From positions 310,001 to 374,000 of the forward strand of contig NZ_KB905694.1 in assembly GCF_000380985.1 (NCBI RefSeq): 64,000 nt of DNA, in the 5' to 3' direction. Shown piece by piece: positions 13,571-37,062 of the stretch. The translations under genes were made by a program, and so were the position numbers. This DNA comes from Proteiniphilum acetatigenes DSM 18083 (GTDB taxonomy: Bacteria > Bacteroidota > Bacteroidia > Bacteroidales > Dysgonomonadaceae). The notes below the pieces were generated by a model. The model ran no database searches and was not told the origin of the DNA. It saw nothing but the letters and a program-made list of their open reading frames with translations. Positions within the stretch are counted from its first letter, which is position 1. Each line of letters opens with the position of its first letter.

Positions 13571-14098
13571 ATGCCCCTTATAAAATCAGTTCGCGGCTTC
13601 ACACCCGAAATCGGCGAAAACACATATATGGCAGAAAATGCCACTATCATTGGAGACGTGATCATCGGCCGCGATTGCAGCATTTGGTTCAATACCGTAC
13701 TGCGCGGCGATGTGAACTCCATCCGTATCGGAGATAGAGTGAATGTGCAGGACGGTACGGTCATTCATACCTTATACCAGAAATCGGTATCTATCATTGG
13801 TAACGATGTATCCATCGGTCATAATGCAGTCATCCACGGTGCTGAAGTGAAGGATGGTGCACTCATCGGGATGGGAGCCATCGTACTCGATCATGCTGTG
13901 GTAGGTGAAGGCGCTATTATCGCTGCAGGTTCCGTAGTGCTCAGTGGTACACAGGTAGAACCGGGTAGTATCTATGCCGGCGTACCGGCCAAATTCGTCA
14001 AGAAGGTCGATCCGGAGCAATCCAAAGAGATGAACCAGAAAATAGCCGGCAACTATTTAATGTACGCGAGTTGGTTCACCTCAGATCCACGAACTTAA
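13571..14098 (+). CDS. Gamma-carbonic anhydrase-like hexapeptide protein
   Basis: 175 residues of left-handed beta-helix repeats with a C-terminal helix. The His positions that bind zinc in gamma-carbonic anhydrases are visible in DGTVIHTLY and SIGHNAVIHG. Proteins of this size (YrdA/PaaY/CaiE type) are trimeric and may be carbonic anhydrases or thioesterases. The last 23 bases overlap the convergent PaaK-like gene. Confidence 0.9.
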   Translation: MPLIKSVRGFTPEIGENTYMAENATIIGDVIIGRDCSIWFNTVLRGDVNSIRIGDRVNVQDGTVIHTLYQKSVSIIGNDVSIGHNAVIHGAEVKDGALIGMGAIVLDHAVVGEGAIIAAGSVVLSGTQVEPGSIYAGVPAKFVKKVDPEQSKEMNQKIAGNYLMYASWFTSDPRT

Positions 14099-15371
14099 TG
14101 GCCTTACGGCTCGTTTCGGGATATTTGATTTTGGCGATGTATTCGGGTGAAGCAAACTGAATAGTGGGTGCTACCCGCACACGGGAGCGGAAGAGGTCTT
14201 TCAGCTCCTTTTCAAATTTTTCCGAAGGGTGTTCGCAACCCACACGCACCACGATCTCATCAGTACCCAGATCGTTGGTATAGACATCTATTATATAATC
14301 CTTTATCTGCGGTATATTGTCGAGTATATCGTAAAGTGCTGGCGGATAGAGCGAAGTGCCTTTGAATTTGATAAGTTGTCCTTTCCGCCCCACAATGGCA
14401 CTCAACCGGATGCTGTTTCTGCCGCATGTACAAGGTGAAGTGTAATGACAGCAAATGTCTCCCGTCCGAAATCGCAGAAGTGGCATACCCGTAACACCCA
14501 GCGTAGTAATAGTGACTTCTCCGGGTTCACCTTCCGGGACAGGATTTCCGCCATCATCCAGAAATTCGGTGATAATCAGTTCGGGTTGCAGATGTCCTCC
14601 GTTCTGGTGCTCACATTCGGTAAACGATGCCTGCATTTCGGTTGAGGCATAGGTACTCAAAAGCATAGGTACATGCCACTTTTCATGGATGCGTTGTCCC
14701 AGTGTATTCAGCGTAAAATCAGGATTCCGGAGATTTTCGCCGATACAAATGGCTTTCTTTAGTGAACTTGCATTGTAATCAATGCCATTCTGCTCGGCGT
14801 AGTCAATAAGTTTCAGTAGAAATGAAGGCACTACCATGCAAAATGTGGGCTTCACACTACGAATGCTATCCCATTGCAATTGGGGAATTCCGTTACCTAC
14901 ACGTATAATTCCCGCACCGAGCAGACGTGCACCCATATAATATGCCAATCCGGCCATAAACCGGCGATCGAGTGTGGTCATCAGTTGCATCACATCGTCA
15001 GCCGAACAACCAGCAGTGGAAAATGAGAGATACTCATTATAAGCCAGCCGGTCGAGATCGTTATTGGTCAGTGCAAACATTACCGGTTCACCCAATGTGC
15101 CGGATGTAGTGACGTAATCGATTATTTCCGATCGCTCCACACAGATAAAATCCTGATTGTATTTTTGCAGATCTACCTTATCAGTAGTGGGCAACAAACG
15201 CAAATCCTCCAGCCTTTGAATTTTCCGAAAATCGATATTGTTTTCGGTAAACATCTTTTGATAGAATGGTGAACGTGCTGCCAGATATTCGATATTTTCT
15301 ACCAGTAATTTCTCTTGAAATTTCTTGATGGTATCTTCTGTTTCAAACTGAATATGCGTGTGATGTTTCAT
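14076..15371 (-). CDS. PaaK-like adenylate-forming CoA ligase of the pigment cluster
   Basis: 431 residues, homologous to phenylacetate-CoA ligase / coenzyme F390 synthetase. The ATP-binding loop VTTSGTLGEP, the STEMQAS segment and the FRTGDICC motif are present. In aryl polyene clusters a ligase activates the aromatic starter acid for loading on an ACP. By position at the end of this cluster it would activate 4-coumarate or a related acid; this is inference, since typical ApeH ligases are of another branch. It starts 2 bases after the C45 gene. Confidence 0.85.
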   Translation of the reverse strand: MKHHTHIQFETEDTIKKFQEKLLVENIEYLAARSPFYQKMFTENNIDFRKIQRLEDLRLLPTTDKVDLQKYNQDFICVERSEIIDYVTTSGTLGEPVMFALTNNDLDRLAYNEYLSFSTAGCSADDVMQLMTTLDRRFMAGLAYYMGARLLGAGIIRVGNGIPQLQWDSIRSVKPTFCMVVPSFLLKLIDYAEQNGIDYNASSLKKAICIGENLRNPDFTLNTLGQRIHEKWHVPMLLSTYASTEMQASFTECEHQNGGHLQPELIITEFLDDGGNPVPEGEPGEVTITTLGVTGMPLLRFRTGDICCHYTSPCTCGRNSIRLSAIVGRKGQLIKFKGTSLYPPALYDILDNIPQIKDYIIDVYTNDLGTDEIVVRVGCEHPSEKFEKELKDLFRSRVRVAPTIQFASPEYIAKIKYPETSRKAIKFVDLR

Positions 15372-15373
15372 TT

Positions 15374-17050
15374 TTAGTTGTTTTTCCTGATCTTTTTCTC
15401 AATATTTTCCTTATCTCCCAGTCGTGGAATTTCCTTTGTCAATGCCGTTTGCCAGTAACTAAGCGCTTCTGCAGGTTTATCTTGTGAAAAGTAATAATCC
15501 CCTAACAGTTCATAGGTGTAAAAATACTCGGCATTGGTTTGCAGGAATACTTCCAACCTCTTTGAATCGACTGTTTCTCCCTGTTTTATGGCGTTACTAA
15601 TTTCATCCTTCAACCGACGGTAATCCTGTACCCGGATGTAAGTACCTGAAGTGAGCCCGGCATCAGGTTCAATTGTCAGATCAGTATCTACACTGGAAAC
15701 AGTAATTTTTGCACTATCCATTTTCCCGAAAATTTCACCCAGATCATACATCACAAATTCACCCATCTGCCATGGTGAGGTGGTAACCCACATTTTTAAT
15801 TCCTGTGGTTTAAAAACCATCGAGTGATGAGCAATAAACTGGTTAATAGCCTTTTCATTGGTTAGTCCGATAAGTTTGTCCTGCAGGCCCAGTGTATCCC
15901 TTAGGATCCCGGCAGCCTTTTGATAGTTGACCTTTCCGGCGCGATCGAGTAATTCGTTCATTCGGTGCAGACGGTAATCGCTGTCCGTCGTACGGATATT
16001 TTCCACATTTTTCGGATCATTCCTGAAAACGTCGGATTGATAATGGTTCGTGCATACGATTCGCCCGGACGATGATTGGTGCATGCCTATTTTATCTGGT
16101 GATTTCTCGATAATTACAGCTTTCCCATCCTTTGCAGAACCGATAAGCAGGCTTTCAGCCACAAATGTTTTGTGAGATTCGGCTATTCTGTAGGCTTCAT
16201 CGATAGTGCCGGCATACTGCAAAATAATGCGCGCCAGGATCGAAATAGGTGTCGCAGAACCGATAGGCACAGACGCCTGTGAAGCGTTGATAGTAACGGT
16301 GAGTCCCACTTCATTCATTCCCGAAAGCACGCCTGTCATCCCAATCCAGCAAACCGATGCAAATTTATAGCCTTCATCAGGATTATAGAATGCCACCACT
16401 TTGTTTTTGGCAAAATCATCTCCCACGAAAAAGTCGAAATTTCGCCCGATAATCAACATGGAGTCGGCACTCTCACTCCCCCAGGTGCCAAACGAACTGC
16501 ATCCCACCAACATGTATGCCTGCATCATATGTCCGATGTCGTGTGCAGCATGATAATTGAGCTGACGCTCGTAGGGTGTGCCGATGGCGTCAAACTCGTC
16601 TGTACACGAAAGTGAAATACCGTAAATCTCTTCGCGGTTTTCTTCGGGCACCTGTTTACCCAAATTGCGGTTGAAAATGACCAGGAAATAACGCAGGAAT
16701 TTCAGGTATTTTTCCGAAGGGATGATTTTCCTGATTTCATCCACAAACACTTTTTCCTGATAATAAAGCAGATCTTCCGAAATTCGTCCAATAGCCACTC
16801 CTCTTTCAAAAGGTGTACCCTTCACATATAATTCCCAGAGACCTTGCCGGTTTAGGATGAGCGTATTGTCTCCGTACGAACGGAGACTGTCGGTGATGGA
16901 AAACGGAAGGTCAGATAGATCGGACACGTCCAGATCGGGTTGTTTCATGTCAGCCGTGGAGTAGAGAATATACGAACCTGCAATGAGGATTATCACCAAA
17001 GTTATAAATCCGATTGCCAACCATTTCAATATTTTCATCAGGAGGTGCAT
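15374..17050 (-). CDS. C45 family autoproteolytic acyltransferase/hydrolase with N-terminal anchor
   Basis: 558 residues (or 554 from the second Met). A membrane anchor spans about 10-32. An Ntn-hydrolase domain of the acyl-CoA:6-aminopenicillanate acyltransferase type follows, with the expected nucleophile Cys184 in VGCSSFGTWGSES and a following IIGRNFDF strand. The C-terminal 90 residues look like TPR helices. Related enzymes occur in flexirubin-type clusters. A role in transferring or releasing the acyl chain in the periplasm is inferred. It abuts the FAD oxidoreductase gene. Confidence 0.85.
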   Translation of the reverse strand: MHLLMKILKWLAIGFITLVIILIAGSYILYSTADMKQPDLDVSDLSDLPFSITDSLRSYGDNTLILNRQGLWELYVKGTPFERGVAIGRISEDLLYYQEKVFVDEIRKIIPSEKYLKFLRYFLVIFNRNLGKQVPEENREEIYGISLSCTDEFDAIGTPYERQLNYHAAHDIGHMMQAYMLVGCSSFGTWGSESADSMLIIGRNFDFFVGDDFAKNKVVAFYNPDEGYKFASVCWIGMTGVLSGMNEVGLTVTINASQASVPIGSATPISILARIILQYAGTIDEAYRIAESHKTFVAESLLIGSAKDGKAVIIEKSPDKIGMHQSSSGRIVCTNHYQSDVFRNDPKNVENIRTTDSDYRLHRMNELLDRAGKVNYQKAAGILRDTLGLQDKLIGLTNEKAINQFIAHHSMVFKPQELKMWVTTSPWQMGEFVMYDLGEIFGKMDSAKITVSSVDTDLTIEPDAGLTSGTYIRVQDYRRLKDEISNAIKQGETVDSKRLEVFLQTNAEYFYTYELLGDYYFSQDKPAEALSYWQTALTKEIPRLGDKENIEKKIRKNN

Positions 17051-17051
17051 A

Positions 17052-18548
17052 TCAACTGTTTCCTATTTTCTTTGCCAGATATTCTTCGCCCAATAACTCG
17101 CTGCAACTAAGCAGAGAAGTGAGTGTAACCCCGAGTACGCCGTGCATGTTCACATTTTGTCCGGCAAACATGAGATTTTTCACCTTGCTCCGTATCGGAA
17201 TAAGTGTGGAAAGGGGGTTCTGGTAATTTTTCATTATACCGTATGCCGAACCTTCCGGTGAACCGGTATAGTCGCGATACGAAAGCGGAGTGGTAGTCAC
17301 TATCCGTTCCGTATTGTCCAGGATATCAGGATCAAACTGTCTCACAAACCGGATAATATCTTCGGTTTTCCGTTCTTTGAATTGCCTGTAATCATCGCCA
17401 CGCCGCTCGTAAAGCGTATCTTTCCACGGTTCCACTTCTCTGTAAAGCATCGGCGTCAGCAACTCTACCACATTGGTATAGCGGAGATCTTCTTCGCTGG
17501 GGCGCATCGACGTCAGTACACCAACCACACCTTTATCATCCGGAAACGATGTTCTGTGCCACGCATCCTGCCCGTCAGCATAAAAATAAATATTGTGATT
17601 GATATACCTTGAAGAATTTTTCTTCTTAATCAGATACACCGTAAAAAAACCATAAGAATTAGGCAACGCACTCAGTCTCGACAGATACGCCTTACGAATA
17701 TTAGTGGTTCTGTCGGTGATTTCGAGCGTTTTCATCGGATGCATCGTAGAAATGACATTCTTTGCCTGAATCAATTCACTGTTATTCACTTCCACACCAC
17801 TTACAATGTTTTGGTCGCAACGAATAGCTGTAGCCTGGGCTCGGGTGATCACTTTTCCGCCGTTACTTTCAATCTTATGCACGAGGGCATCGGTCAGTTG
17901 CATACTGCTCCCGACAAAACGATAGGAGCCATGCAGGTATGACGATGTGGTCATAGCATGAATATAAAATGTGGACACCCCCTTATCGCCTCCGTAAAGC
18001 ATGGCAGGATTTGAAAGCACGTGACGAAGACGCTCGTTTTGAGTGATCCCGGCAATGGTTTTCCAGGCCGAGAGAGAAAAAATATCCAGGTTTGACGTTG
18101 AAATCCTACCCTTTCTGAAGCCCTCCACTGTGACGGCACTTGCAATATCCGAGATCACTTTCATATAACGTTGCAGGTTCTCCCTTTCGTCAGGAAAATC
18201 TTTGGCAAGTGTCTCAATAAACCGCTTTTCTCCCATGGCATAGGAATATGATTTATCGGGATATACAATCCGATCGAAACCATCTTCATCCAATCGTACA
18301 AGTTTTATCTCGTTCATGATACCAAGGTAGGAAAAGCAACGGTTCAATGGCTCATCTTCGTCCATACTCCCGATGTAGTGCACACCAGTATCAAGTGTTC
18401 GTCCGAAACGTCTGAATCCCTGAAAACAACCGCCCGGTATGGCGTTTTTCTCAAGTACGCATACCGAATAACCTTCTTTGGATAGCACTGCGCCGCAAAG
18501 CAAACCACCCAATCCGCTACCGATAATGACGATATCATATTTCTGCAT
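17052..18548 (-). CDS. CrtI/CrtISO-like FAD-dependent oxidoreductase
   Basis: 498 residues. The N-terminal dinucleotide-binding motif is IIGSGLGGLLCGAVLSKEG followed by LEKNAIPGGCFQ, and the C-terminal FAD contact is FAGQNVNMHGVLGVTLTS. It belongs to the phytoene desaturase / carotenoid isomerase superfamily. No other carotenoid gene is nearby, so in this cluster it more likely desaturates or isomerises the polyene chain. It lies 6 bases after the MMPL fusion gene. Confidence 0.87.
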   Translation of the reverse strand: MQKYDIVIIGSGLGGLLCGAVLSKEGYSVCVLEKNAIPGGCFQGFRRFGRTLDTGVHYIGSMDEDEPLNRCFSYLGIMNEIKLVRLDEDGFDRIVYPDKSYSYAMGEKRFIETLAKDFPDERENLQRYMKVISDIASAVTVEGFRKGRISTSNLDIFSLSAWKTIAGITQNERLRHVLSNPAMLYGGDKGVSTFYIHAMTTSSYLHGSYRFVGSSMQLTDALVHKIESNGGKVITRAQATAIRCDQNIVSGVEVNNSELIQAKNVISTMHPMKTLEITDRTTNIRKAYLSRLSALPNSYGFFTVYLIKKKNSSRYINHNIYFYADGQDAWHRTSFPDDKGVVGVLTSMRPSEEDLRYTNVVELLTPMLYREVEPWKDTLYERRGDDYRQFKERKTEDIIRFVRQFDPDILDNTERIVTTTPLSYRDYTGSPEGSAYGIMKNYQNPLSTLIPIRSKVKNLMFAGQNVNMHGVLGVTLTSLLSCSELLGEEYLAKKIGNS

Positions 18549-18554: not shown

Positions 18555-21500
18555 TTATCCTTTTTTCTTCCTGAAAATAAAAATCTGATTGGATGTCAGC
18601 TTGTCATTCGAATGCCGCTCCAAATCCAGTCGGTGTTTCCGGGCAAATGCTTCAAACTGCTTCGCCGTAGGGAATTGTAACTGCTGTTCCGTTTTGTTGA
18701 ATTTGAAAAAACGGGTGGAAAGCATTTCGGTAAACCGTGTTATTTTATGCTCCCGACGTCGATCGGCATCACTGTCACGTACGATAATCATACCGCTATC
18801 GTTTATCTTTTCCACGCATTTCTCCAATAAAATTTCCTGCGAACCATAATCCATATAATGCAGCATATCATTTACCACAAACACATCGGCATACGGATAT
18901 TCATATTGCAACGCATCAGTGCATTCAAAGCGGATTTGCGGTGTTTTGGAGAAATTGTGATTGGCTATCGCAATTTTGTCATCGTCGTAATCGATACCTA
19001 AAACTGTACGTTCAGGCGAAGTTGTGGACAGCATGTAGGCGAGCATACCATATCCGCAACCCACATCTACCACCGATGCACAACGGGGAATAATACGTTC
19101 GAAATAAGCGTAATATTTCTCCATTGCCGATTTCACCCGCACGTACCACTCTTCCACCGGCCCTTTGTACACATAGTTTTGTACCAGTTTATGCCTGAAA
19201 TAGAGGTTATCGGGTCGATTGTAGCACTCCTGTAAACGATGGTATTCGTTGCTTATAATAGTTTTCACCGCTTTTGCGGCATCATGCGATGAACCGTATT
19301 CCGATAGCTTTTCAGCCGAAATTCTCGGTAGGAAGCTTGCTCCGTAAGTACCCGGCTTCACATAAAACATCTGTCGCTTATTGAGTATCTGTCCGGTACC
19401 GTAAATCACCATTGGAACCACATCTAACTGTAGGCTCTCAGCCAGCATAAATGCGCCTTTGTGGAACCGTTTGATCTGTCCGTCCGCCGAGCGGGTACCT
19501 TCAGGAAATACTACAACCGAATAGCCGTCGGCAACTTTTTCACGAAGTATTTCACCCATATTTTCAAACCCTTTCTGCGTAGGTATAAATCCGGCATAAC
19601 GCACCACGTGCCCGAAAACAGGTGAGTTCCACACCCACTGATTGGTTACCATGACAATCTTCGGCGAAAGCGAAAGCATGATCAGGATATCGATCATGGA
19701 TTGATGGTTAGCCACAATAACAGCCTGTTTTTTTAAATCTTCATCACTGTCATTAATAATTCTCTTTCTCGTATAGAAAATAAAGAATAGGAACAGCCGT
19801 GTACTGTACATGATCATCCGGCTGAACAGTACTTTTTTCTTTCTGATTGAGACGGGCACTAAAGCCAGCAGAAGTCTTGCAATAAACAGAAGCAGGCTTC
19901 CCAAAACAAATGATACATAAATCAGTGTGGTGCAAACCAGATAAAAAAGCGTGTAGGGATAATTTCCTTTGCGTGCGGGACGGGTAATGAAAGTGCGGAA
20001 CAGAACCGGGATCACCGTGTATGAAACCAGCAAAACAGACATCATGCCCAGAATGCTGATCAACGAAATGGATTTCAGGGCGGGATGTCTGGCGAAGATC
20101 AGTACACCCATCCCTACCGTAGCAGTAAATGCTGAAAACAGAATAGCTATTTTATGTGAATTGACCAGTTTCTTACCTGTACGGTATTCCTGCTGTACAC
20201 CATCCATCATAAAGATGGAGAAATCGTCTCCCAATCCAAAAATAAACGTAGACAATATGATATTGATGATATTGAATTCGATACCGAAGATAGCCATCAG
20301 ACCCTGAATAATCACCCAACTGATTGCCATCGGAGCAAAAGCCATCAACGTAAGTTCGAACCGCCCATAGGAAATAAGCAACGCCAGAAAAATAATCAGC
20401 GATGAGAGAAATAAAATGGTGTTGAAATCGTCATTGATCACCGAAACCCATTTATTGATAAAAAATGCTCGGTCAAAAATTACCAGGTCGGGATCAGTGC
20501 CCATTGTATTGTACACGAAATCTTTCTGATTGTCCGACAACTGTACCTGGGTGATGCACATCAGCGAATTGCCGTCACTCACTACCCAATCCGCCAGGAA
20601 AGGGATATTCTCACCCAGCTCTTCCGGTGAGAACGGTTTGAATTCTTTATCCAACAGGTTAAAAAACGGCTCAAAGGCATCAGGAGAAAATCCATACTTC
20701 ATTCCGCTCTCCCGGATTTCGGCTTTTAGCCATTGTTTTCTGTCATCCGTCCAGAAATCGTTCCATCGGCGGATGCGCTCTTGCTGCTGTTGCGGTGAGA
20801 TCATCAGTTTTTCCGACGATACAAAATCCTGAATCTTCCCTTGTGCTTTTAATAGGGCCAATGAACTGTTATTTTCAGCATAATTGTGCAGGGCCTCCTC
20901 CACCGTTTTGCCTATCGAAACAAACATGATTTGTTGACGGTCACCTGTCATAAAAAGATGGCTCATTTTATGCTCGGCTTGTCTGATATGCGCAGGTTCG
21001 TAATTCAGGTTAGACATATCACTGTCGAACTTCACATTACGCATGGTGAAAAGTCCGGCAACAAAAAGCGCCAGGATCACCCCTAATAGGATTTTGTTTT
21101 TCTCAAAAGGATAGGATGTGATTTTTTCGACTACCTTCAGCGCTCTCCGGGAAGTTTGCGAATCAGTCTTTCTACCCAGAAGATGAGGCAGAAAAATCAG
21201 GCAGAACAAGGTGGTACCCACCAACGAAAGGGCGGAAAACAACCCGAAATCGCGCAACATGTCGGACGAAGTGAACAACAGCGAAAGGAATGCACCAATG
21301 GTGGTGAATCCGCCCACGACCAGCGGATAGGAGAGTTCTTCGATTAATTGGCGGCGCGATTGTACGTGGTTATAATGGGTAAGCACATGAATAGAATAGC
21401 TCAGCGCGATACCCAACACTACTGCTCCTACTCCTATGGCAATAGCAGAAATGGATCCTTTAATGAAAAAAATCATTGCCAAAGCAAAAATTCCACCGTA

Positions 21501-23934: not shown

Positions 23935-24125
23935 AAGAAACAAGCATGAATTACAAAGTAATCGACGTAGTCAAAATTGTTCTCACACAAGAATATGATT
24001 AAAAGCGACTTCCATATGACACCTCTAAAAATAATAGTTATAATCATATGAAAATGCAACTCTTAGATCACACAAATGTACATGAAATTTTTGATTTTAC
24101 CCGTTTCAGAATCAATGATCTTCCT
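23935..24125. other. Only sizeable gap inside the cluster's second half
   Basis: 191 bases of AT-rich sequence in a region where other genes overlap. Minus-strand TACATTTG at 24073-24080 is a possible -7 box, but no TTTG lies 19-21 bases upstream. No small gene was recognised. Confidence 0.35.
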
Positions 24126-28191: not shown

Positions 28192-28445
28192 TTTTTACGG
28201 TTCTTGCCGATAAAATCGGCCAGCGTATCAATCGAGTAAAAAATCTCCTTTGCTTCTTCGGGTTTTGTCAGGCGGATACCATAGTTGCGTTCGAGAATAA
28301 GGATAATTTCAAGTGCATCGATAGAATCCAGCCCCAGCCCGTCACCAAAAAGCGGTTCCTCGTCCACGATTTCCTCTGCGGTTATATCTTCCAGGTTCAG
28401 CGCCTGAATCAGCGCTTCTTTTAGTTCTTGTTTCAGTTGATCCAT
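28188..28445 (-). CDS. Acyl carrier protein 1 of the cluster
   Basis: 85 residues, acidic helical bundle. Ser41 in GLGLDSIDALEI is the phosphopantetheine site. It is the first gene after the internal promoter and overlaps the ketosynthase gene by 4 bases. Confidence 0.93.
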   Translation of the reverse strand: MDQLKQELKEALIQALNLEDITAEEIVDEEPLFGDGLGLDSIDALEIILILERNYGIRLTKPEEAKEIFYSIDTLADFIGKNRKK

Positions 28446-28471: not shown

Positions 28472-28503
28472 CAAAGGTAACAAACCCTCACCTTTCCATC
28501 AAA
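28472..28503 (-). promoter_or_regulatory. Internal cluster promoter in front of ACP 1
   Basis: On the minus strand TTTG (28500-28503), 20 bases, then TACCTTTG (28472-28479). This matches the Bacteroidetes primary-sigma pattern. It overlaps the end of the 601-residue ketosynthase gene (stop at 28488) and sits about 27 bases before the ACP start codon. It would let the downstream half of the cluster be transcribed on its own. Confidence 0.65.
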
Positions 28504-30293
28504 TAAAATTCCGACAGAAAGTTATTGTCTAACAAGTCACACCATCCCACAATACAATAATTCAAATCCTGCTCATTCATCACCATTCCGGCATATTGAA
28601 TTAAAAAATCCTTATCGAATTCCCGTTGGATAAAAAAGGTGTTTTCACCTTTCATTTTCCAATAAATGCAGATCTCACCCAACATAACATTGGGCAATGT
28701 GTAGACGAAAATGGCAGGGCTTGCTTCCCGGTCGCCCACCGCATCGAGGTTTTGTCGATAGTGAATGTCCGTATCGAGCGATGATGAACGATTGGCTATA
28801 ATGATACCTTTTGATTCCGGTGGGAGCCCTGAAAAACCATCCACCGAACGGGTGATCCAGGCTGTGGTGATAAAGCCCAGTTTCGACAGATCGTCCATCT
28901 TGTAAAACTTGCGATAAGACAGATTGAGTGATGCGTAAGCCTTTCTTATAAAAGTAGGAAAATCATCTGTCGGTTCGTTTGCAAGCACACGTTCATCATT
29001 CAGTTCCACCCCCAAAGCACTTATATTACATTTGGAGACAATTTTCGCTCTTTTTAGTATTTGAGAAGAGGTTTCCTCCAGCTGTTTTCCCTGGAGTGGT
29101 GCGCTCCCGGACAGGGGTTTATTCCCCGGCACAGATTCTTTACCTATCACGATGGTCGCATTACAACCGCCAAAACCAGAGGCTGTTTTCAGGCAATAAG
29201 TCAAATTCATCGGGCGATGCAGAGCATCGATATTGAGCGGATATGGTACACCGATGGTTTCAAACCCCGGCACACCAAACACGATATCGTTTTCGAGCTG
29301 TTGTTTACAGATGATCGTCTCAATTACTCCGGCCGCTCCGAGCGTATGCCCGAAATAGGGTTTCAGGCTTTGCAAAGGTTTGCCGGAAAGTCCTGAGAGA
29401 TACAGTGCCTTGCTTTCCATTTCGTCGTTGTAAATAGTGGCTGTCCCGTGTGCATTGACAAAAGATACATCATTTGCAGAAATTCCGGCTTGAAGCAAAG
29501 CCTGTTCTATGGCCATATGCAACTCTTCTCCCGTACGTGATGGCCCTGAGATATGGTTTGCATCATTGGTGATCGCCCCACCGAGCAGCATCGCAGGTTG
29601 TTGCTCTGTCACATGCTTTTTATCACTGGTAAGTAAAAGCGACCCAATGGCTTCACCCAAAGAAAGTCCATCGCGACCGGCATCGTAAGGTTTACAGATA
29701 CCTGTGCTTACCGATTTGAACGCATGGAACCCACTGACGATAAAATCCGATAGTTCGTCGCCTCCGGCCACTACCATATGTGTAAACATACCGTTCTCAA
29801 TCAACCTTTTTGCAACAATCATAGCCGAAATACCCGAAATACAGGCATTACAGAGCACGACAGGTTTGGCTGAAAATCCAAAGTATGCGGCAATTTTTTC
29901 GGCAGAATGAGAAAGGAGAAGTTCATCTCCGGTCTCGTTTCCGGCAGAAAGCCGACCAATATTGCCTTTGGTGGAAGCCAGTATAAATCCGCAATTATTT
30001 TGACGTATATCCACACCACTTTGTCCAAGCGTCTGACGGATAGAAAGTATAAGAAGCTGCTCAAAACGGGAAAAATCATATAAATTGTGTTCCGGGACAA
30101 GTAATTGTAAACGATTATCATCAATTTTTGCCCCGTAAAACAATTCGGAATAAAACTGCGAATCACGGATAGGTTGCACTCCCGATTGATACTTAAACAT
30201 ACGTTCCCGGCATTCCCCGGAAGAAAACCCCAGTGAACTGATCAAGGCATCTGCCGTCAGATAAATCACCGGATGTTCCATTTCTCTTTCCAT
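28488..30293 (-). CDS. Beta-ketoacyl-ACP synthase with an extra C-terminal domain
   Basis: 601 residues; a normal ketosynthase ends near 400. The first part has an intact triad: Cys151 in VVLCNACISGIS, His282 in NAHGTAT, His316 in YFGHTLGAAG. The last 190 residues (from about 410) include IIIANRSSSLDTD and TLPNVMLGEICIYWKMKG, which look like a degenerate half ketosynthase without nucleophile. Thus one protein may hold a KS and a chain-length-factor-like part. It overlaps the thioesterase gene by 28 bases. Confidence 0.85.
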   Translation of the reverse strand: MEREMEHPVIYLTADALISSLGFSSGECRERMFKYQSGVQPIRDSQFYSELFYGAKIDDNRLQLLVPEHNLYDFSRFEQLLILSIRQTLGQSGVDIRQNNCGFILASTKGNIGRLSAGNETGDELLLSHSAEKIAAYFGFSAKPVVLCNACISGISAMIVAKRLIENGMFTHMVVAGGDELSDFIVSGFHAFKSVSTGICKPYDAGRDGLSLGEAIGSLLLTSDKKHVTEQQPAMLLGGAITNDANHISGPSRTGEELHMAIEQALLQAGISANDVSFVNAHGTATIYNDEMESKALYLSGLSGKPLQSLKPYFGHTLGAAGVIETIICKQQLENDIVFGVPGFETIGVPYPLNIDALHRPMNLTYCLKTASGFGGCNATIVIGKESVPGNKPLSGSAPLQGKQLEETSSQILKRAKIVSKCNISALGVELNDERVLANEPTDDFPTFIRKAYASLNLSYRKFYKMDDLSKLGFITTAWITRSVDGFSGLPPESKGIIIANRSSSLDTDIHYRQNLDAVGDREASPAIFVYTLPNVMLGEICIYWKMKGENTFFIQREFDKDFLIQYAGMVMNEQDLNYCIVGWCDLLDNNFLSEFYLMER

Positions 30294-30709
30294 CTCAGAT
30301 AAAAATCGGGATTATTCAGCTCTAATAAATTAGAGTTTAGATGGGTGAAAACCTGTATGGTAGATGCTTCGGCAACCACGGCGCCGTCGCTTTTGCGATA
30401 AATAGTATAGTCGAACTGGATCTTTGCCGCATCGCAATCCACATAACGCGTTTCTACAATGGCCTGTTCGTTGAACGAGAGCGAGAGTTTGTAATCAATA
30501 TTCAGCTTCACGATCGGCGCTGCAAAACCGGCTTTCCTCATATCCATATAGCTGAGTCCGTAGTGTTGGCCAAAGGATTCCCGTCCGTCTTCGATGTATT
30601 TCACATACTCGCCGTGCCATACTATCTGCAATGCATCCACTTCGCTAAACCGCACCTGAATTTCCACACGGTCGGTAAGCGACGCTTCCCGTTTTTGTTT
30701 TCGCTTCAT
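30266..30709 (-). CDS. Acyl-CoA/ACP thioesterase, 4HBT type (ApeK-like)
   Basis: 147 residues. The hot-dog fold has the 4-hydroxybenzoyl-CoA thioesterase motif: VRFSEVDALQIVWHGEYVKY (Asp in the usual catalytic position, then the NH/WH pair) and a YEDGRE-like helix IEDGRESFG. It may clear stalled chains or release the product. Start and stop codons overlap with the neighbouring dehydratase gene by one base. Confidence 0.9.
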   Translation of the reverse strand: MKRKQKREASLTDRVEIQVRFSEVDALQIVWHGEYVKYIEDGRESFGQHYGLSYMDMRKAGFAAPIVKLNIDYKLSLSFNEQAIVETRYVDCDAAKIQFDYTIYRKSDGAVVAEASTIQVFTHLNSNLLELNNPDFYLRWKEKWNIR

Positions 30710-31167
30710 TATTTGTTCAAGTATATTTTGAGTTCACCTTCGGCAATCAATTCATCTTCCACCCACGACTTTACACCCGCAAGCGTGATATTTCCCACCT
30801 CCTGGATTATGCTAACTACTGTCAACAATTCATTACCAACCCGGGGATGTGCATGGATGGAAAATTTGCTCACTGCGCCGATAAATCCGACAGGGACAGT
30901 TTCGTTATTTTGTACGAAAAGAAAACCTATCCGGGCTGCTGCCGACTGTGCAAAATGCTCGATCACCCCTTCCTCGGTGAGTATACCATTGTAACAGAAA
31001 AGGTTTCCTTCCGTGACCGTAAGCCCTGAAAATGAATCACGATCGTCTATACCGAAGAACTTATCGACCATCACCATCGGTTCGCGCTGTGGGATCAACT
31101 CCCAGACAGCAGCACCAGAATAAACCGGATATTGAAAATGAGATATGTAAGGCTCTTCACTCTTCAT
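30709..31167 (-). CDS. 3-hydroxyacyl-ACP dehydratase-like (ApeP-like)
   Basis: 152 residues of hot-dog fold: WELIPQREPMVMVDKFFGID is the FabZ-type opening, and the central helix is EEGVIEHFAQSAAARIG, with Glu-His in the family position. It is the second dehydratase of the cluster besides that at 23563-23934, as expected for an ApeI/ApeP pair. It overlaps the methyltransferase gene by 4 bases. Confidence 0.85.
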   Translation of the reverse strand: MKSEEPYISHFQYPVYSGAAVWELIPQREPMVMVDKFFGIDDRDSFSGLTVTEGNLFCYNGILTEEGVIEHFAQSAAARIGFLFVQNNETVPVGFIGAVSKFSIHAHPRVGNELLTVVSIIQEVGNITLAGVKSWVEDELIAEGELKIYLNK

Positions 31168-32255
31168 TCTTCACTCTTTACGCATTCCAGAATACTATGC
31201 CCCAGTCCGATATTATCATGAATCTTATCGATCTTCAGACCGGCTTTCTCAATAATCCGTATCATATCCCCGGAATAGTACATTTTACTGTTTCCGTTTG
31301 CCATGGCAGTGAAATAAACACTGGTCTGTGCCAGACAGAATGCCGAAGTCTCAAACCGTTGCCGGTCCCAAAATGTTTCCATCACGAACAGGCGGGTACT
31401 TCCGGTCATGGAATTTGCCGCACGGGAAACAATGCTGAAAACCTGTTCCTCCGAAAAACAATCCAGGAACTGACTCATCCAGATGGCATCAAAAGGGCCG
31501 GGAAACGAAGTTTCAGTATCCAATAAATCAGCCGGATATCCGTGAATACGATCAGCCTCCGGCAGATGTTCAGTTTGTGATTTCATCAATCCTATCTGCT
31601 GTGGTAAATCCATGATGGTAACCTGTACATCGGGTGAATGATTCACGCATTGTAATGACCAACGACCAGTATTTCCTCCCACGTCGAGCAACGTTTTGGG
31701 CGAATGGGCAAAAACCACTTCAAGCGCCTGGGGAAATGAGTTGTCGGAATAAAAATGGTCGAACCCGAACCAGCTTTTCTGCACATGGTCAGGTAGCGAC
31801 GAAAGTCCTTCATAAATGGTCGGCCAGTCACCAAAAACTTTCAATCCTTCAGGTTTACCGTTCAACAAAGCTTCTTCAAGCGAAAAGAGTCCCAGATAAT
31901 TCACATCGTGGTTGAAGCTCATGTTCACTTCAATCATCGGATCGGTCAGGAAAAACCAGCCCGTCTTACTTAGGTGAAAACGTTCATCTTTCAGCAGAAC
32001 CGTTCCGGCAGTAAGTGACGACTCCAGTAAGACCTGTGCCGCATAACGTGAAATCCTCACCCGTTCAGCCATCTCATCCATACTCAGCCCGTTATCGCTG
32101 TCACGCAAAAGCGAAAAAATCCCGAATTTGTACATCAGTCTGGCAACCTGAAAGACCACCGGTGCAAATGCGATCAAATGTGCCATCCGCTGCGCCTCAG
32201 AGGCTGTAAGATGGTCGCTTTCATAAGCTTGTTTTAGTGGCGCTTCTAATTTCAT
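31164..32255 (-). CDS. Class I SAM-dependent O-methyltransferase
   Basis: 363 residues. The N-terminal winged-helix dimerisation domain (LLRDSDNGLSMDEMAERVRI) and C-terminal Rossmann domain with motif I LLDVGGNTGRW resemble plant-type and polyketide O-methyltransferases. It could methylate the aryl hydroxyl or ring of the polyene head. Methyltransferases are common in aryl polyene and flexirubin clusters. Confidence 0.88.
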   Translation of the reverse strand: MKLEAPLKQAYESDHLTASEAQRMAHLIAFAPVVFQVARLMYKFGIFSLLRDSDNGLSMDEMAERVRISRYAAQVLLESSLTAGTVLLKDERFHLSKTGWFFLTDPMIEVNMSFNHDVNYLGLFSLEEALLNGKPEGLKVFGDWPTIYEGLSSLPDHVQKSWFGFDHFYSDNSFPQALEVVFAHSPKTLLDVGGNTGRWSLQCVNHSPDVQVTIMDLPQQIGLMKSQTEHLPEADRIHGYPADLLDTETSFPGPFDAIWMSQFLDCFSEEQVFSIVSRAANSMTGSTRLFVMETFWDRQRFETSAFCLAQTSVYFTAMANGNSKMYYSGDMIRIIEKAGLKIDKIHDNIGLGHSILECVKSEE

Positions 32256-32310: not shown

Positions 32311-33216
32311 TCATTTCCCCCAGAACCGGTAATAGTTGAACCATTGGTGCGGATATCTTTGCACAATGGTTTCAAGTGCTTGTACGTATTGTTCCAAAAG
32401 CCGGAATTCAGGTTTTGATCCGAGGCCCCCGGGTACAGGTTCGGCTATCCGGAAATGAAATTTGTATTTCATCCCCCGTTCACGCATGGAGAAATAGAAA
32501 ATTACGGGAACCTGTAAGCGCGAAGCCAGCAGAAAAGGACCGATGGGAAAACGGGCTGTTTTACCAAGAAACCCGACTTCAGCAGTCTGTGTATTTTCTA
32601 AAAAACGGTCACCCTGAAAACAGATATATTCATGACGGTCGAGTATAGCTTTCGCCCGGAGGATATTCGATAACCCGTCCGTTTCATCAAGGGGGAGCAC
32701 GTTATAGTTGCGGCTTTCACTATGCTGCTCAAGCATTTCCTTGATTTTCCGGTACTCGGCATCGAGCATGGCGATATACATTTTCTTACCGTATTTATCA
32801 AAAAAAGGGGATCCGATTTCCCAGTTCCCGACATGTGCACTCACCATGATAGCCCCTCTCTCCTGATTCAGAATTTCCAGAAAACGGGAATACGATTCAT
32901 CAAAAACAAACTGATACCGGTCTTTTTTTCCTGCCGAAACAGCGACTTTATCGATGAGTGTCTGTCCGAAACGGTAATAATTCGCAAACAGGAAAAGGAA
33001 CGATTGAAAGGCGCCTTTCTTCAAAATATTCCGCGCGTACCACCATGATGCTGCAGTAGCTTTCGGAGCAAAAGGAATGAAATAGACAACGACAAAAGCC
33101 AAAAAAATATACGCGAACCGCACTCCCAATCGGTCAATCAGAAAAATAAAGAAACCATAACCGAAAGAGCCTCCACGCGTTTTCCCGCTCCATTCCTTGT
33201 CGTTATTGTCGCCCAT
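32311..33216 (-). CDS. LpxL/HtrB-like lysophospholipid acyltransferase
   Basis: 301 residues. One N-terminal membrane helix lies near 17-50. The acyltransferase motif is HX4E in VSAHVGNWEIG, and CFQGDRFLENT and RLQVPVIFYFSMRERG are the later blocks. It belongs to the lipid A acyltransferase family. In this context it may transfer the polyene from ACP to a lipid, as proposed for similar genes in aryl polyene clusters. It overlaps ACP 2 by 14 bases. Confidence 0.9.
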   Translation of the reverse strand: MGDNNDKEWSGKTRGGSFGYGFFIFLIDRLGVRFAYIFLAFVVVYFIPFAPKATAASWWYARNILKKGAFQSFLFLFANYYRFGQTLIDKVAVSAGKKDRYQFVFDESYSRFLEILNQERGAIMVSAHVGNWEIGSPFFDKYGKKMYIAMLDAEYRKIKEMLEQHSESRNYNVLPLDETDGLSNILRAKAILDRHEYICFQGDRFLENTQTAEVGFLGKTARFPIGPFLLASRLQVPVIFYFSMRERGMKYKFHFRIAEPVPGGLGSKPEFRLLEQYVQALETIVQRYPHQWFNYYRFWGK

Positions 33217-33454
33217 TCATTTTTGATTCTATAAAATCATAGAAGTCTTGAAAAGTGGCTATTTCCCTGAAATCAGTCGCTTTGGGTGTGAAGTGAAAAT
33301 TTTGCTCTATCAGCACTACCATATCCACCAGATCGAGACTGTCCAGATCGAGCGTTTCCATAAGGTGTGCCCCGGGCGTAATTGTCTCGATATCCACTTC
33401 GAACTCCTCTGCAAGATTTTCGTTAATGAGTTTGATAAGTTCCGTTTTATCCAT
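33203..33454 (-). CDS. Acyl carrier protein 2 of the cluster
   Basis: 83 residues. Ser39 in ETLDLDSLDLVDM is the phosphopantetheine site. Unlike ACP 1 (DSIDALE) it has the more FabACP-like DSLDLVD helix. Two different ACPs are also present in the Gammaproteobacterial aryl polyene clusters (ApeE, ApeF). Confidence 0.93.
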   Translation of the reverse strand: MDKTELIKLINENLAEEFEVDIETITPGAHLMETLDLDSLDLVDMVVLIEQNFHFTPKATDFREIATFQDFYDFIESKMNGRQ

Positions 33455-33486
33455 GATTCAATATAAGATGATTGCGTTCATTAAAA

Positions 33487-34719
33487 TTAGTCATTTTCTT
33501 GCTTGAATTTCCTGATTACCAACGATGAATTGGTACCTCCAAAACCAAATGAATTCGATAAAAAAGTATCAAAAGAATGATGTATTGTTTTTGTTGGAAT
33601 GTTGAGTTGGGGGGCATCGTCATCTGCCTGTTCAAAGTTGATAGTCGGAGCGATAAAATCATTTTGCATCATCAACATCGAATAGATCACTTCGCTCGCA
33701 CCCGCCATCCACATTTCGTGCCCGGTCATCGCTTTGGTAGATCCCACATAGGGTTTATGATCGCCAAAAACGGCATCGATCGCTTTCGCCTCGTTCAGGT
33801 CGCCTACGGGCGTGGAAGTAGCGTGTGCATTGAGATAACTGATTTCTTCAAGCGAAATGCCGGCATCGCGTATCGCCATCTCCAAAGAACGTTTCGGGCC
33901 ATCTACATTGGGTACGGAAATGTGGTTCCCATTGGATGAAAACCCATAACCCGCCACTTCGGCAAGGATGGGTGCACCACGCCTGACTGCCGACTCATAA
34001 CTTTCGAGAATGACCGTAGCCCCACCACCGCTTGGCACTAATCCGTCGCGGTTTCTATCGAACGGGCGGGATGCTTTTGCCGGTTCGTCTTCGCGTACCG
34101 AAAACGCCGAAAGCCCGTCAAAACTGCCTATGGAAAACAGATTTACCTCCTGCGCCCCACCACATACAATGCAATCCTGAAGTCCCTGTTTAATAAGCAG
34201 ATAACCTATACCGATAGCGTGCGAACCACTTGCGCAAGCGCCCGACACAGTAAAATTGATCCCTTTCAGTTTGAATATAACCGACAAGTTCATTGTGATG
34301 GTAGAGTTCATACTCTGAAAAATAGAACCTGAACCCACCAACGCAGTATTTCTTTTTTGACGAATGATATCGCAGGCCTCAATAACCGGTTGAGCAGAAC
34401 TGTCGTTGCCGTAGAGAATTCCTACTTCGTTATTTTCCAGAAAATCATTGTCGATCTTTGCCTGTTCAAAAGCTTCTAAAGTGGCTACGTAAGCATATTT
34501 TCCCTGCTCGGGAATCCCTGCACGTTGACGGCGGTCGAGCTGAGTTTTCAGGTCGGGCACTTCGAGCAGACCCGTGAGTCCTGAACGAAAGCCAAATTCC
34601 TTCCGGACAGGATCAAACCCGATACCTGATTTCCCTTCATATAAAGATTGACGAACTTCGTCTTTGTTTTTTCCGATACAGGAATAAATACCCATTCCTG
34701 TGATAACTACTCTGTTCAT
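33487..34719 (-). CDS. Beta-ketoacyl-ACP synthase (FabF-like)
   Basis: 410 residues with a complete triad: Cys162 in VSGACASGSHA, His299 in NAHATSTPVGD, His334 in MTGHEMWMAG. It is the closest to ordinary FabF of the three active ketosynthases, so it may start the chain on the aromatic unit or elongate it as ApeR/ApeO do. It lies between fabG-like and ACP 2 genes. Confidence 0.92.
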   Translation of the reverse strand: MNRVVITGMGIYSCIGKNKDEVRQSLYEGKSGIGFDPVRKEFGFRSGLTGLLEVPDLKTQLDRRQRAGIPEQGKYAYVATLEAFEQAKIDNDFLENNEVGILYGNDSSAQPVIEACDIIRQKRNTALVGSGSIFQSMNSTITMNLSVIFKLKGINFTVSGACASGSHAIGIGYLLIKQGLQDCIVCGGAQEVNLFSIGSFDGLSAFSVREDEPAKASRPFDRNRDGLVPSGGGATVILESYESAVRRGAPILAEVAGYGFSSNGNHISVPNVDGPKRSLEMAIRDAGISLEEISYLNAHATSTPVGDLNEAKAIDAVFGDHKPYVGSTKAMTGHEMWMAGASEVIYSMLMMQNDFIAPTINFEQADDDAPQLNIPTKTIHHSFDTFLSNSFGFGGTNSSLVIRKFKQEND

Positions 34720-34734
34720 ATAATGAATTGACGA

Positions 34735-35466
34735 TTACGTATAAATCCCCCCGTTGATTGAAATCACTTCGCCCGTGATGTAACCGGCTTCATTGGAAAC
34801 AAGAAATCCGACGAGGGACGCCACCTCTTCAGGCGTCCCGAATCTTCCGCAGGGGATCATTTTTTTCAGTTCGTTTTCATCCAAATCCTGTGTCATATCC
34901 GATTTGATGAAACCCGGCGCCACTGCATTCACAGTAACTCCTTTTTTTGCCACTTCCTGTGCAAGCGCTTTGGTTCCGGCAATTACACCGGCTTTGGATG
35001 CGGAGTAATTTGTCTGACCCGGCATGCCTTTTATACCGGACAAAGATACAATATTCACAATCCGGCCAAAACGTTTTACAAGCATATTCTTCACCAACAG
35101 ACGTGTAATATTATAAAATCCGTTAAGACTGACATTGATCACGCTGTCCCATTCGTGTGGTTCCATCCAAAGCATCAGGTTGTCTTTACGGATGCCGGCA
35201 TTGTTGACAAGCACTTCGATATAATGGTCGGGATGATTGGCTGCCCATTCATTAAGTACGAAAGCCACCTGTTCGCGGTCAGCCACATCAAAACGCAGCA
35301 GTTCACCATCAGATCCCGCATTACGGACAGCTTCCAATGTCTGCCCTGCTTCCTGCGGGCTGTTGTTATAATTGATCAAAACGCTGTACCCCATCGATGC
35401 CAGGCGAATGCAGATTGCCCGTCCGATACCCCGGCTTCCGCCCGTTACGAGTGCATATTTTGTCAT
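34735..35466 (-). CDS. 3-oxoacyl-ACP reductase, FabG/SDR family (ApeQ-like)
   Basis: 243 residues. Cofactor motif TGGSRGIG, NNAGIRKD, catalytic Ser at about 141-143, Tyr154 and Lys158 in NYSASKAG, and the C-terminal GEVISINGG. It reduces the 3-keto group before dehydration. It overlaps the lyase gene by 4 bases, so reductase and lyase are coupled. Confidence 0.93.
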   Translation of the reverse strand: MTKYALVTGGSRGIGRAICIRLASMGYSVLINYNNSPQEAGQTLEAVRNAGSDGELLRFDVADREQVAFVLNEWAANHPDHYIEVLVNNAGIRKDNLMLWMEPHEWDSVINVSLNGFYNITRLLVKNMLVKRFGRIVNIVSLSGIKGMPGQTNYSASKAGVIAGTKALAQEVAKKGVTVNAVAPGFIKSDMTQDLDENELKKMIPCGRFGTPEEVASLVGFLVSNEAGYITGEVISINGGIYT

Positions 35467-37007
35467 GATACAATACTTTTGGTTTTCAGATATTCAACAA
35501 TCCGGTTAATATCTTTGTATCTGGGTTTATCATCCACAAATGTAGGAAAAAAACTTCTTGTTTCATGATAAATTTCCTGGCTTTTTGGGGATAACTTCTC
35601 CGCCGCCTGCAAACAATCAACAGCCTGAACAATAGCCATATAATGAATTGCCATTACCTGAAAGCCGTTTTCGATAACCGTCTTGGCGAGCAACGCAGAG
35701 TTGGTCCCCATACTTACGATATCCTGGTTGTCGTTATTGTTGGGGATGCTGTGTAGATACATCGGATAAGAAAGGGTCTGGTTTTCAGCTGTGGTGGATG
35801 TAGCAGTAAACTGCATGGCTTGCATCCCATAGTTGAGCCCGAGCGTGCCGAGATTGACGAACGGAGGAAGAATTTCGTTCACTTTATCATGCATCAGGTA
35901 GTTGAGTTGACGCTCCATCAGCATAATCATTTTGGTAACGGCAATTTTCAGTTTATCCATTTCGAAAGAGATATAATCGCCATGAAAATTCCCACCATGA
36001 TAGATATTTTCCGAAGAACAATCTATGATTGGATTGTCACTCACCGAATTAAGTTCATCTATAATCACTTTCCGGGCAATTTTCACTGTATCCCACACAG
36101 GTCCGAGCACTTGCGGCACACACCTGAGCGAATAATAGGGTTGCACTTTCTGTTTGAAATGCGAAGCTTTTGTACCGTTATAGAGTTCTTTCTTACGGTT
36201 TCGGAGCAATTTGCTATCCTTAAGCCACTCGCGCATAAACGCTGCCGTCTCGACCTGGCCGTTATGCTGCTTAACACCATTGAGTTCAGGTGCCAGAAAA
36301 TCGTCGTATGATTGGGCAATTTCATTCATCATGGCTGATGCCACGAGTGCGTGGTGGAGCAGTTTCCTGGCAAGAATGAGATTGACCAGCCCTACACCGG
36401 TCATCATAGATGTACCGTTTGTGAGCGCCAATCCTTCACGAATATGCAGTTTGAACGGCTCGATGCCGGTTTGCTTCATCACATCAGCCGTGGATTGCAG
36501 TGTACCATTGAAAAATACTTCCCCTTCACCGATCAGTGCAAGTGCAATGTGTGCTAATTGGACCAGATCACCGCTGGCTCCTACACTTCCGTGTGAGGGC
36601 ACATAAGGGCAGATATCGAAGTTGATAAAATCAATCAGCGTCTGGATCAGTGCGGGATGAATGCCGGAGTAACCCTGGGCAAATGTACACAGTCGGTCTA
36701 TCATTGCCGATTTCACGTAAATGGGCTCAATGGGTGACCCCACCCCTACAGAATGACTCCGGATGATATTATACTGAAGTTGATTAATTTCCTCATCCTT
36801 AATGTGATATTGCGCCATTGGACCAAAACCGGTATTGACACCATAAATCACTTTATCGATGGAAAACTCTTGTAAGAAATGAAAACTTTTTGTAACCTTG
36901 TCTTTTAACTTTGATGACACTTCTACTTTTGCACCACCAAAGAGCAATTGCTCAATTTCATCTATATCAACACTTTTCTCACTTATTTCTACAATTTTTA
37001 ACGGCAT
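35463..37007 (-). CDS. Aromatic amino acid lyase, probable tyrosine ammonia-lyase
   Basis: 514 residues from the ATG at 37007; a TTG at 37034 lies inside the promoter. The MIO cofactor triad is Ala144-Ser145-Gly146 in GSVGASGDLVQ, the catalytic Tyr is Y55 in VIYGVNTGFGP, and LQYNIIRSHSVG is the substrate-selectivity loop. These phrases closely match the characterised Flavobacterium johnsoniae tyrosine ammonia-lyase from memory, more than hutH enzymes. No hut genes are nearby. It would supply 4-coumarate as the aromatic starter. Histidine lyase activity remains possible. Confidence 0.88.
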   Translation of the reverse strand: MPLKIVEISEKSVDIDEIEQLLFGGAKVEVSSKLKDKVTKSFHFLQEFSIDKVIYGVNTGFGPMAQYHIKDEEINQLQYNIIRSHSVGVGSPIEPIYVKSAMIDRLCTFAQGYSGIHPALIQTLIDFINFDICPYVPSHGSVGASGDLVQLAHIALALIGEGEVFFNGTLQSTADVMKQTGIEPFKLHIREGLALTNGTSMMTGVGLVNLILARKLLHHALVASAMMNEIAQSYDDFLAPELNGVKQHNGQVETAAFMREWLKDSKLLRNRKKELYNGTKASHFKQKVQPYYSLRCVPQVLGPVWDTVKIARKVIIDELNSVSDNPIIDCSSENIYHGGNFHGDYISFEMDKLKIAVTKMIMLMERQLNYLMHDKVNEILPPFVNLGTLGLNYGMQAMQFTATSTTAENQTLSYPMYLHSIPNNNDNQDIVSMGTNSALLAKTVIENGFQVMAIHYMAIVQAVDCLQAAEKLSPKSQEIYHETRSFFPTFVDDKPRYKDINRIVEYLKTKSIVS

Positions 37008-37031
37008 ACATGAAGAAGTTCTAATTGTCCA

Positions 37032-37062
37032 CAAAAGTACTCAATTTTTTCGGGATGTCAAA
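37032..37062 (-). promoter_or_regulatory. Main pigment-cluster promoter
   Basis: Minus-strand TTTG (37059-37062), exactly 19 bases, then TACTTTTG (37032-37039): a perfect match to the Bacteroidetes TTTG-N19-TAnnTTTG pattern. The lyase start codon follows 24 bases after the -7 box, so the leader is very short. It is back to back with the DUF5686 promoter. Confidence 0.75.

Follow-up and report, generated by a model that had tools for sequence, protein, structure and literature searches.

A flexirubin-family gene cluster without known dialkylresorcinol genes in Proteiniphilum acetatigenes

What does a flexirubin gene cluster make when the genome lacks the known genes for half of the flexirubin molecule? 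This question is raised by a 64,000-nucleotide stretch of DNA (the window, G000:C3:310001-374000) from a Proteiniphilum acetatigenes assembly (G000; 4.78 Mb, 37 contigs, 100% complete). In this window 21 open reading frames (ORFs), all on the minus strand, fill positions 14076-37034. From the gene content we think it likely that an intact flexirubin (flx) operon runs here without the dialkylresorcinol (DAR) module, and that it would load an aryl polyene, primed by a tyrosine ammonia-lyase, not onto a dialkylresorcinol but onto a lipid or glycolipid anchor. The finished product is probably a pigment lipid other than flexirubin, because the known genes for the other half of flexirubin are missing from the genome.

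The flx cluster of Proteiniphilum

Judged by its genes, the cluster is an intact member of the flexirubin family. Five of its proteins (FlxA, FlxB, FlxJ, FlxY and LolB2) score above the curated cut-offs of NCBIfam equivalogs for flexirubin or Flx families. The gene order from FlxA to FlxY is that of the Flavobacterium-type cluster of genome G208 (L068, L069), and the order in Parabacteroides goldsteinii (L019) agrees too, as far as that locus extends. The G208 order differs in that the LpxL gene and the thioesterase are separated by DarA, DarB, a BtrH-like gene and an ABC transporter pair, and in extra genes elsewhere; in the window, FlxJ and one dehydratase stand at the DarA-DarB place. The initial annotation had called the locus an aryl polyene/flexirubin-type cluster with a tyrosine starter. 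The five equivalogs and the colinearity with G208 bear out the first part, and FlxA, at 847.7 bits against a cut-off of 700, bears out the second. In Chitinophaga pinensis the purified enzymes FlxA and FlxY are a tyrosine ammonia-lyase and a 4-coumarate-CoA ligase, as reported in PMC3992019. From the FlxA end, the ORFs and their assigned roles are:

35463..37034 (-) FlxA, tyrosine ammonia-lyase for the 4-coumarate starter (NF053541, 847.7 bits, cut-off 700; PF00221; TTG start)
34735..35466 (-) FlxB, SDR ketoreductase (NF053542, 419.1 bits, cut-off 340)
33487..34719 (-) KS1, FabB/ApeR-like ketosynthase (top NCBIfam match, below cut-off, and PDB matches FabB-type; ApeR homologue 4EWG also matched)
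33203..33454 (-) acyl carrier protein 1 (PF00550)
32311..33216 (-) LpxL/LpxM-like acyltransferase (PF03279)
31164..32255 (-) FlxJ methyltransferase, predicted ring C-methylation (NF053543, 615.3 bits, cut-off 560)
30709..31167 (-) dehydratase 1, FabZ-like (FabZ models below cut-off; no Pfam match)
30266..30709 (-) 4HBT thioesterase, ApeK role (PF13279)
28488..30293 (-) KS_A, 601-aa ketosynthase with a C-terminal half (28488-29111) like a chain length factor (CLF) (PF00109/PF02801; predicted fold)
28188..28445 (-) acyl carrier protein 2 (NF006617, 86.7 bits, cut-off 70)
27007..28191 (-) KS_B, FabF/ApeO-like ketosynthase (NF006618, 346 bits, below the cut-off of 407; in the PDB, ApeO 6qsp_A behind FabF chains)
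26114..26983 (-) half ketosynthase, 289 aa, CLF with ApeC role (PF13723; predicted fold)
25446..26117 (-) polysaccharide deacetylase (PF01522)
24727..25359 (-) LolA-like carrier, ApeL role (PF03548)
24126..24803 (-) LolB2, ApeN role (NF053540, 75.9 bits, cut-off 60)
23563..23943 (-) dehydratase 2, FabA-like (PF07977, a weak match at 24.4 bits, cut-off 23)
22415..23611 (-) GT2 glycosyltransferase-DUF2062 fusion, ApeJ-like role (PF00535, PF09835)
18555..22418 (-) fusion of MMPL transporter, PlsC-like acyltransferase and methyltransferase, ApeM/ApeD-like roles (PF03176, PF01553, PF13649)
17052..18548 (-) CrtI/CrtD-like FAD oxidoreductase (PF13450; TIGR02733, 121 bits, far below cut-off)
15374..17050 (-) C45-family autoproteolytic acyltransferase/hydrolase (NF040521, 235.2 bits, cut-off 85)
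14076..15371 (-) FlxY, PaaK-like 4-coumarate-CoA ligase (NF053551, 708.6 bits, cut-off 520)

Neighbouring ORFs are spaced by -77 to +182 bases, and the GC content of the cluster is 45.0%, against 44.1% in the remaining window. Pfam and NCBIfam confirm most of the initial gene inventory, with weak matches for the dehydratases. Its roughly 20 genes are 21, its cluster end at 37062 moves to 37034 (the TTG-start ORF), and its overlaps of 1-28 bases have two larger exceptions (49 and 77 bases), both of which hinge on the choice of start codon. It had missed the second CLF half and had left out the C45 protein, the polysaccharide deacetylase, the GT2-DUF2062 protein, the CrtI-like FAD enzyme and LolB2. 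Its mapping of the ligase onto ApeH is right as to role, but the enzyme itself is FlxY (NF053551), a 4-coumarate-CoA ligase in C. pinensis (PMC3992019). Read in the sequence, FlxA has the MIO motif Ala-Ser-Gly and the C45 protein has the Gly-Cys context GCSSFG, which is conserved in relatives; this protein is a candidate for late acyl transfer. Cys-His-His, read by eye, is retained in the three cluster ketosynthases.

From predicted structures, the operon seems to hold two ketosynthase-CLF pairs, one of them fused, and a FabB/ApeR-like ketosynthase. The C-terminal 207 residues of KS_A have no Pfam match; in Foldseek their predicted structure (mean pLDDT 77.5) matches first the ishigamide CLF 6kxe_B and then ApeC 6qsp_B. 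The same half is a separate 205-aa ORF in G208 (L068:15421-16038). For the 289-aa half ketosynthase the top three Foldseek rows are ishigamide CLF, ApeC is not among the best 50 matches, and a sequence search gave no PDB relative. The CLF fold matches have moderate TM-scores and a large root-mean-square deviation, with many other ketosynthase and CLF folds close behind.

FabF-, FabB-, FabG- and FabZ-like families would also be expected of ordinary fatty acid synthesis, which the initial annotation had named as the reading that could overturn its own. We give this a negligible probability: FlxA and FlxY are present, and a separate PF00109 ketosynthase (G000:C5) scores 183.7 bits, against 112, 97 and 44 bits for the cluster's three. 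Ordinary fatty acid synthesis is ruled out by these two observations.

Within the genus the cluster is patchy, with FlxA over its cut-off in 5 of 39 Proteiniphilum genomes, G000 among them. Of the named relatives found, Proteiniphilum sp. X52 (L015) is nearest, with an FlxA that is 96% identical; the values for L016 and L017 are 88% and 84%. Patchiness and the missing DAR module could both be signs that a flexirubin cluster has decayed or gone silent here, leaving a remnant. Such decay is highly improbable, however, as all 21 ORFs are open, the catalytic motifs are retained, and cluster content and order are unchanged in the congener G003 and, within its reach, in L015, alongside the FlxA identities just given.

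DAR genes in the assembly and in the phylum

The absence of dar genes from the cluster is uninformative by itself, because C. pinensis and several genomes of our set keep dar apart from flx. According to PMC3992019, flx lies at Cpin_1853-1877 and dar at Cpin_6850-6851 in C. pinensis, about 5,000 locus tags away. We therefore dropped the dar-free cluster as stand-alone evidence.

The DAR module (DarA, DarB and DarE) is absent from the whole G000 assembly. The queries were DarA and DarB from L069, where DarB passes NF053539 and DarA is named by its adjacency to DarB. DarA has no match in G000, either with the single protein or with a six-row profile. Applied to 45 genomes, this profile reached E < 1e-98 in 17 of the 17 DarB-positive genomes tested (G276 excepted), two of which, G208 and G137, had supplied profile rows. 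The family search found no DarB over cut-off in G000; the match to the DarB model (E 7e-8) is below cut-off, like those of plain KASIII genes in other genomes. G000 has only two KASIII genes with PF08541: L084, with no match to the DarB or StlD models, and a FabH-like gene 23% identical to DarB. DarE is the BtrH-like protein of the Azoarcus dar cluster, whose ABC genes are darF and darI (PMC3949708), and G000 has no match to PF14399 (BtrH_N). Thus the initial observation that darA and darB are missing from the cluster and its flanks is confirmed and now covers the assembly: the DarA-DarB pair expected of a flexirubin producer was searched for elsewhere in G000 and not found, nor was its BtrH-like DarE.

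Four flx-bearing congeners, G003 (a single contig), G013, G018 and G036, are likewise negative in the DarA, DarB and BtrH_N searches, at completeness values of 78-100% (93% for G018 and 78% for G036). The single DarA protein matched G001 and G013 at E ~0.007 and 16 bits; the profile found nothing in G013 (G001 lay outside the profile set). In the DarB-negative genomes G494, G624, G678, G428 and G546 the profile gave weak matches confined to its first 109 positions (E 6e-8 to 3e-4).

Could a true flexirubin still be made, with a DAR pathway unrecognised or unassembled elsewhere in the genome? The distance between dar and flx in C. pinensis (PMC3992019) makes this conceivable, as do G307, G055, G501 and G572, where DarB also lies far from FlxA. 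It is very unlikely all the same: searches of a 100%-complete assembly and of the four congeners gave no DarA, DarB or DarE, and identical searches did detect them in dar-bearing genomes.

How common is this state? We use FlxA as a stand-in for the whole cluster when counting genomes, which are related by descent and so are not independent. Among 296 genomes of the phylum, FlxA is over cut-off in 25 and StlD/DarB in 23, all of them within those 25; only G000 and G156 have FlxA without DarB. Two of the 25 are Bacteroidales (G000 and G276), and outside this order DarB accompanies FlxA in 22 of 23 sampled genomes. In a set of 392 Bacteroidales genomes, 93 have an FlxA match at E up to 1e-150, and 91 of these pass the cut-off. 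DarB, sought in all 93, is over cut-off in 36 (31/75 and 5/18) and not in the other 57. That the cluster is a stand-alone case is not supported; it is colinear with other clusters of the flx family known from Chitinophaga and Flavobacterium, and it belongs to an order where 57 of 93 FlxA-positive genomes lack DarB over cut-off. Because of this proportion, the data suggest that the flexirubin label for FlxA/FlxY clusters is often wrong in Bacteroidales. Flexirubin serves as a marker in chemotaxonomy, and any annotation that goes by FlxA and FlxY will label such clusters flexirubin.

A weaker DarB-like gene (110-123 bits) is found in 6 of the 57 DarB-negative Bacteroidales. Divergent DarB-like KASIII genes (~110-122 bits) share a contig with FlxA, at a distance of ~20-40 kb, in G506 (C23:202741-203808), G629 (C11), G504 (C25), G573 (C9:418094-419164) and G419 (C8); such a gene may encode a resorcinol-type synthase of another kind. 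G314 and G292 are just below the DarB cut-off, and FlxA is not over cut-off there. Bacteroides ihuae, a control, has FlxA over cut-off, a DarB-model match (E up to 1e-30) and no BtrH_N; one named control, either Bacteroides ihuae or Caulobacter, passes the DarB cut-off. G276, one of the 36, has a DarB of 488.7 bits, but no DarA and no BtrH_N, and since both are absent we reclassed it as dar-less. BtrH_N, sought in 80 of 120 FlxA genomes, is present in 36 of 37 DarB-positive genomes versus 8 of 43 DarB-negative ones.

A FlxA tree made by a quick method (89 rows: 85 FlxA with dar status, one without, and three HAL) needs 13 changes of dar status. The five Proteiniphilum sequences group together with support 100 and are nested in a 39-row set of 30 dar-less and 8 dar-bearing rows (support 89). 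FlxA of G694 is nearly identical to that of G648 and G532 (end branches ~0.01 or less), and only G694 has DarB, which like its DarA lies on a different contig from FlxA; DarA was searched in G694 alone of the three. This pattern may reflect a recent gain, a loss or contamination. In locus L034 no further flx genes follow FlxA and FlxB; the next ORF (10039-13722, +, 1227 aa) has an N-terminus that we take, by its motif, to resemble a Cas12a protein.

Clusters with and without dar genes

Which genes stay with the polyene, and which travel with DAR? The dar-less clusters tell the two apart. We obtained regions from 56 genomes and compared 51 (G307 was viewed only, and G563, G718, G669 and G505 were unused). 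A cluster counts as complete if FlxA, FlxY, KS_B and MMPL occur in the stretch, which holds for 20 of the 51 and drops 31 regions; these four genes are hence in all 20 by selection. Fourteen complete clusters are dar-less (G276 included) and six dar-bearing, and presence means anywhere in the stretch.

The LpxL-like acyltransferase, GT2, LolA, KS_A, FlxB, dehydratase 1 and acyl carrier protein 2 occur in 20 of 20 complete clusters. FlxJ is found in 13 of 14 dar-less versus none of 6 dar-bearing clusters, and its place is taken by a protein bearing a radical SAM motif in 5 of the 6 dar-bearing clusters and in one dar-less cluster (G588). Beyond these 20, FlxJ does occur in some dar-bearing genomes (G632, G510, G694). 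Pfam identifies the protein at the FlxJ place in L024 (14636-15997, +, ~450 aa) as a B12-binding radical SAM protein, perhaps a different ring methylase; proteins in G572, G573, G631, G501, G504 and G588 resemble it by length and motif only.

All six dar-bearing complete clusters have the C45 protein, as do 6 of the 14 dar-less ones, and the deacetylase gives the same counts. A second dar-less type (G494, G624, G576, G588, G678, G672 and G715) has neither. Between the FAD enzyme and FlxY it carries a ~435-aa protein and one or two smaller ones, which in G494 and G576 are B12/radical SAM-like and esterase-like by Pfam (one of each).

Overall, homologues or counterparts of ApeD, ApeJ, ApeL, ApeM and ApeN persist without DAR, and DarA, DarB and BtrH_N tend to be present or missing jointly. 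The dar-less set separates polyene-linked from DAR-linked genes and makes the BtrH-like DarE a likely ester-forming enzyme. The C45 protein as DAR ester synthase is a weakened candidate, since some dar-less clusters retain it.

The C45 enzyme may have a different partner. It could esterify the polyene acid to another phenol, alcohol or amine, one synthesised elsewhere, and give an ester pigment parallel to flexirubin, one that is not lipid-anchored. The gene adjoins FlxY, its Cys context is kept in dar-less clusters, and the 6 of 6 and 6 of 14 counts are compatible with such a role. We nevertheless regard this as unlikely: 8 of 14 dar-less clusters do without C45, it is the BtrH-like DarE that tracks DarB (36/37 versus 8/43), and C45 proteins may be hydrolases instead.

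The predicted product

For the lipid-anchored polyene that we favour, the genes allow the following route. FlxA would deaminate tyrosine to 4-coumarate, which FlxY would convert to 4-coumaroyl-CoA. Type II extension and dehydration by the two acyl carrier proteins, KS1, KS_A with its in-chain CLF, KS_B with the half ketosynthase, FlxB and the two dehydratases would give an aryl polyene acid, whose ring FlxJ would methylate. Because DarA, DarB and DarE are absent, this acid would escape esterification to a resorcinol. Instead, the two acyltransferases, one LpxL-like and one PlsC-like, would most likely work with the GT2 protein to load it onto a lipid or glycolipid anchor; the deacetylase and the C45 protein could add further tailoring, and MMPL, LolA and LolB2 would export the pigment to the outer membrane. 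Elongation, methylation, anchoring and export are assigned by protein family, and from these we infer the details of chain assembly, the methylation, the acceptor and the location.

By analogy, the DAR-free ape cluster of Escherichia coli is a precedent for a membrane-anchored polyene without DAR; ApeD, ApeJ, ApeL, ApeM and ApeN are proposed there for anchoring and export (PMC8253772). The ape clusters of E. coli CFT073 and Xenorhabdus doucetiae share with ours the lack of DAR, a ketosynthase with a half-size CLF, two acyl carrier proteins, a thioesterase, dehydratases, a ketoreductase, acyltransferases, a glycosyltransferase, LolA, a LolB-like protein and an RND/MMPL exporter. Half-size CLFs are a published trait of ape systems (PMC8358021), seen here, by predicted fold, at 26114-26983 and in the C-terminal half of KS_A; the genes for acyltransferase/glycosyltransferase anchoring and for LolA/LolB/RND export are present as well. 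However, the ape starter is 4-hydroxybenzoate with ApeH, whereas here FlxA and FlxY, a tyrosine ammonia-lyase and a CoA ligase, stand in its stead and point to 4-coumarate. The deacetylase, C45 and FAD enzyme are extra, and none of the 21 ORFs was recognised as ApeG-like.

The flexirubin clusters of C. pinensis (flxA-flxY) and Flavobacterium johnsoniae share the tyrosine ammonia-lyase, FlxY, FlxB, the set of ketosynthases, acyl carrier proteins and dehydratases, the deacetylase, LolA, GT2 and the exporter, and the Flavobacterium-type cluster of G208 also has C45 and the overall gene order. Unlike them, our cluster lacks DarA, DarB, the BtrH-like protein and the ABC pair, and the assembly lacks DarA, DarB and BtrH_N. 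The arcuflavin and xanthomonadin clusters of Azoarcus and Xanthomonas resemble ours in their type II polyene machinery, deacetylase (Azoarcus), LolA, glycosyltransferase, acyltransferase and exporter, but they have a chorismate-derived starter (XanB2) and a halogenase, and Azoarcus has a DAR cluster, darA-darK (PMC3949708).

Several observations weigh against a lipid-anchored product. The dar-bearing Flavobacterium-type cluster also has LpxL, GT2, deacetylase and MMPL genes, so these alone are no proof of a lipid-linked product. True flexirubin clusters have the C45 protein, FAD enzyme and deacetylase, and our cluster retains all three. The known DAR genes were not found in G000, but the search did not extend to resorcinol routes of unrelated origin, such as a type III polyketide synthase. 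In some genomes (for example G449, G462, G633, G644 and G647) few further flx genes follow FlxA in the stretch. The product itself is predicted from gene content. The new aryl polyene lipid class suggested by the initial annotation is therefore possible and compatible with the genes, yet unproven, because the acceptor is only inferred.

It is plausible, if somewhat doubtful, that many Bacteroidales prime an aryl polyene with tyrosine and join it to a lipid or glycolipid acceptor in place of the DAR half. The resulting lipids would form a class between flexirubins and E. coli-type lipids, and lineage-specific modules (FAD-C45 versus the B12/radical SAM-like and esterase ending) would set the acceptor or the tailoring. 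Polyene clusters with and without DAR genes have been noted across a wide bacterial range (PMC3949708), an LpxL homologue of Bacteroides vulgatus has been assigned to an aryl polyene cluster (PMC5850320), and a study of gut biosynthetic gene clusters compares an arylpolyene cluster of Bacteroides xylanisolvens with flexirubin and sees a likeness (PMC12940132). In the titles and abstract openings listed from the open-licence PMC literature we recognised no description of dar-less flx clusters in Bacteroidales, and the literature matches listed held nothing on point on a Proteiniphilum pigment or on arylpolyenes in Dysgonomonadaceae or Parabacteroides.

Next to the cluster lies a divergent gene at 37084-39690 (+), a DUF5686 protein with CarbopepD_reg_2. 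Three flx-bearing genomes were tested, G000, G003 and G013, and all have it at 95-100% identity; among 12 other genomes only G010 has it, at 41%. This neighbour may share one variable region with the flx cluster.

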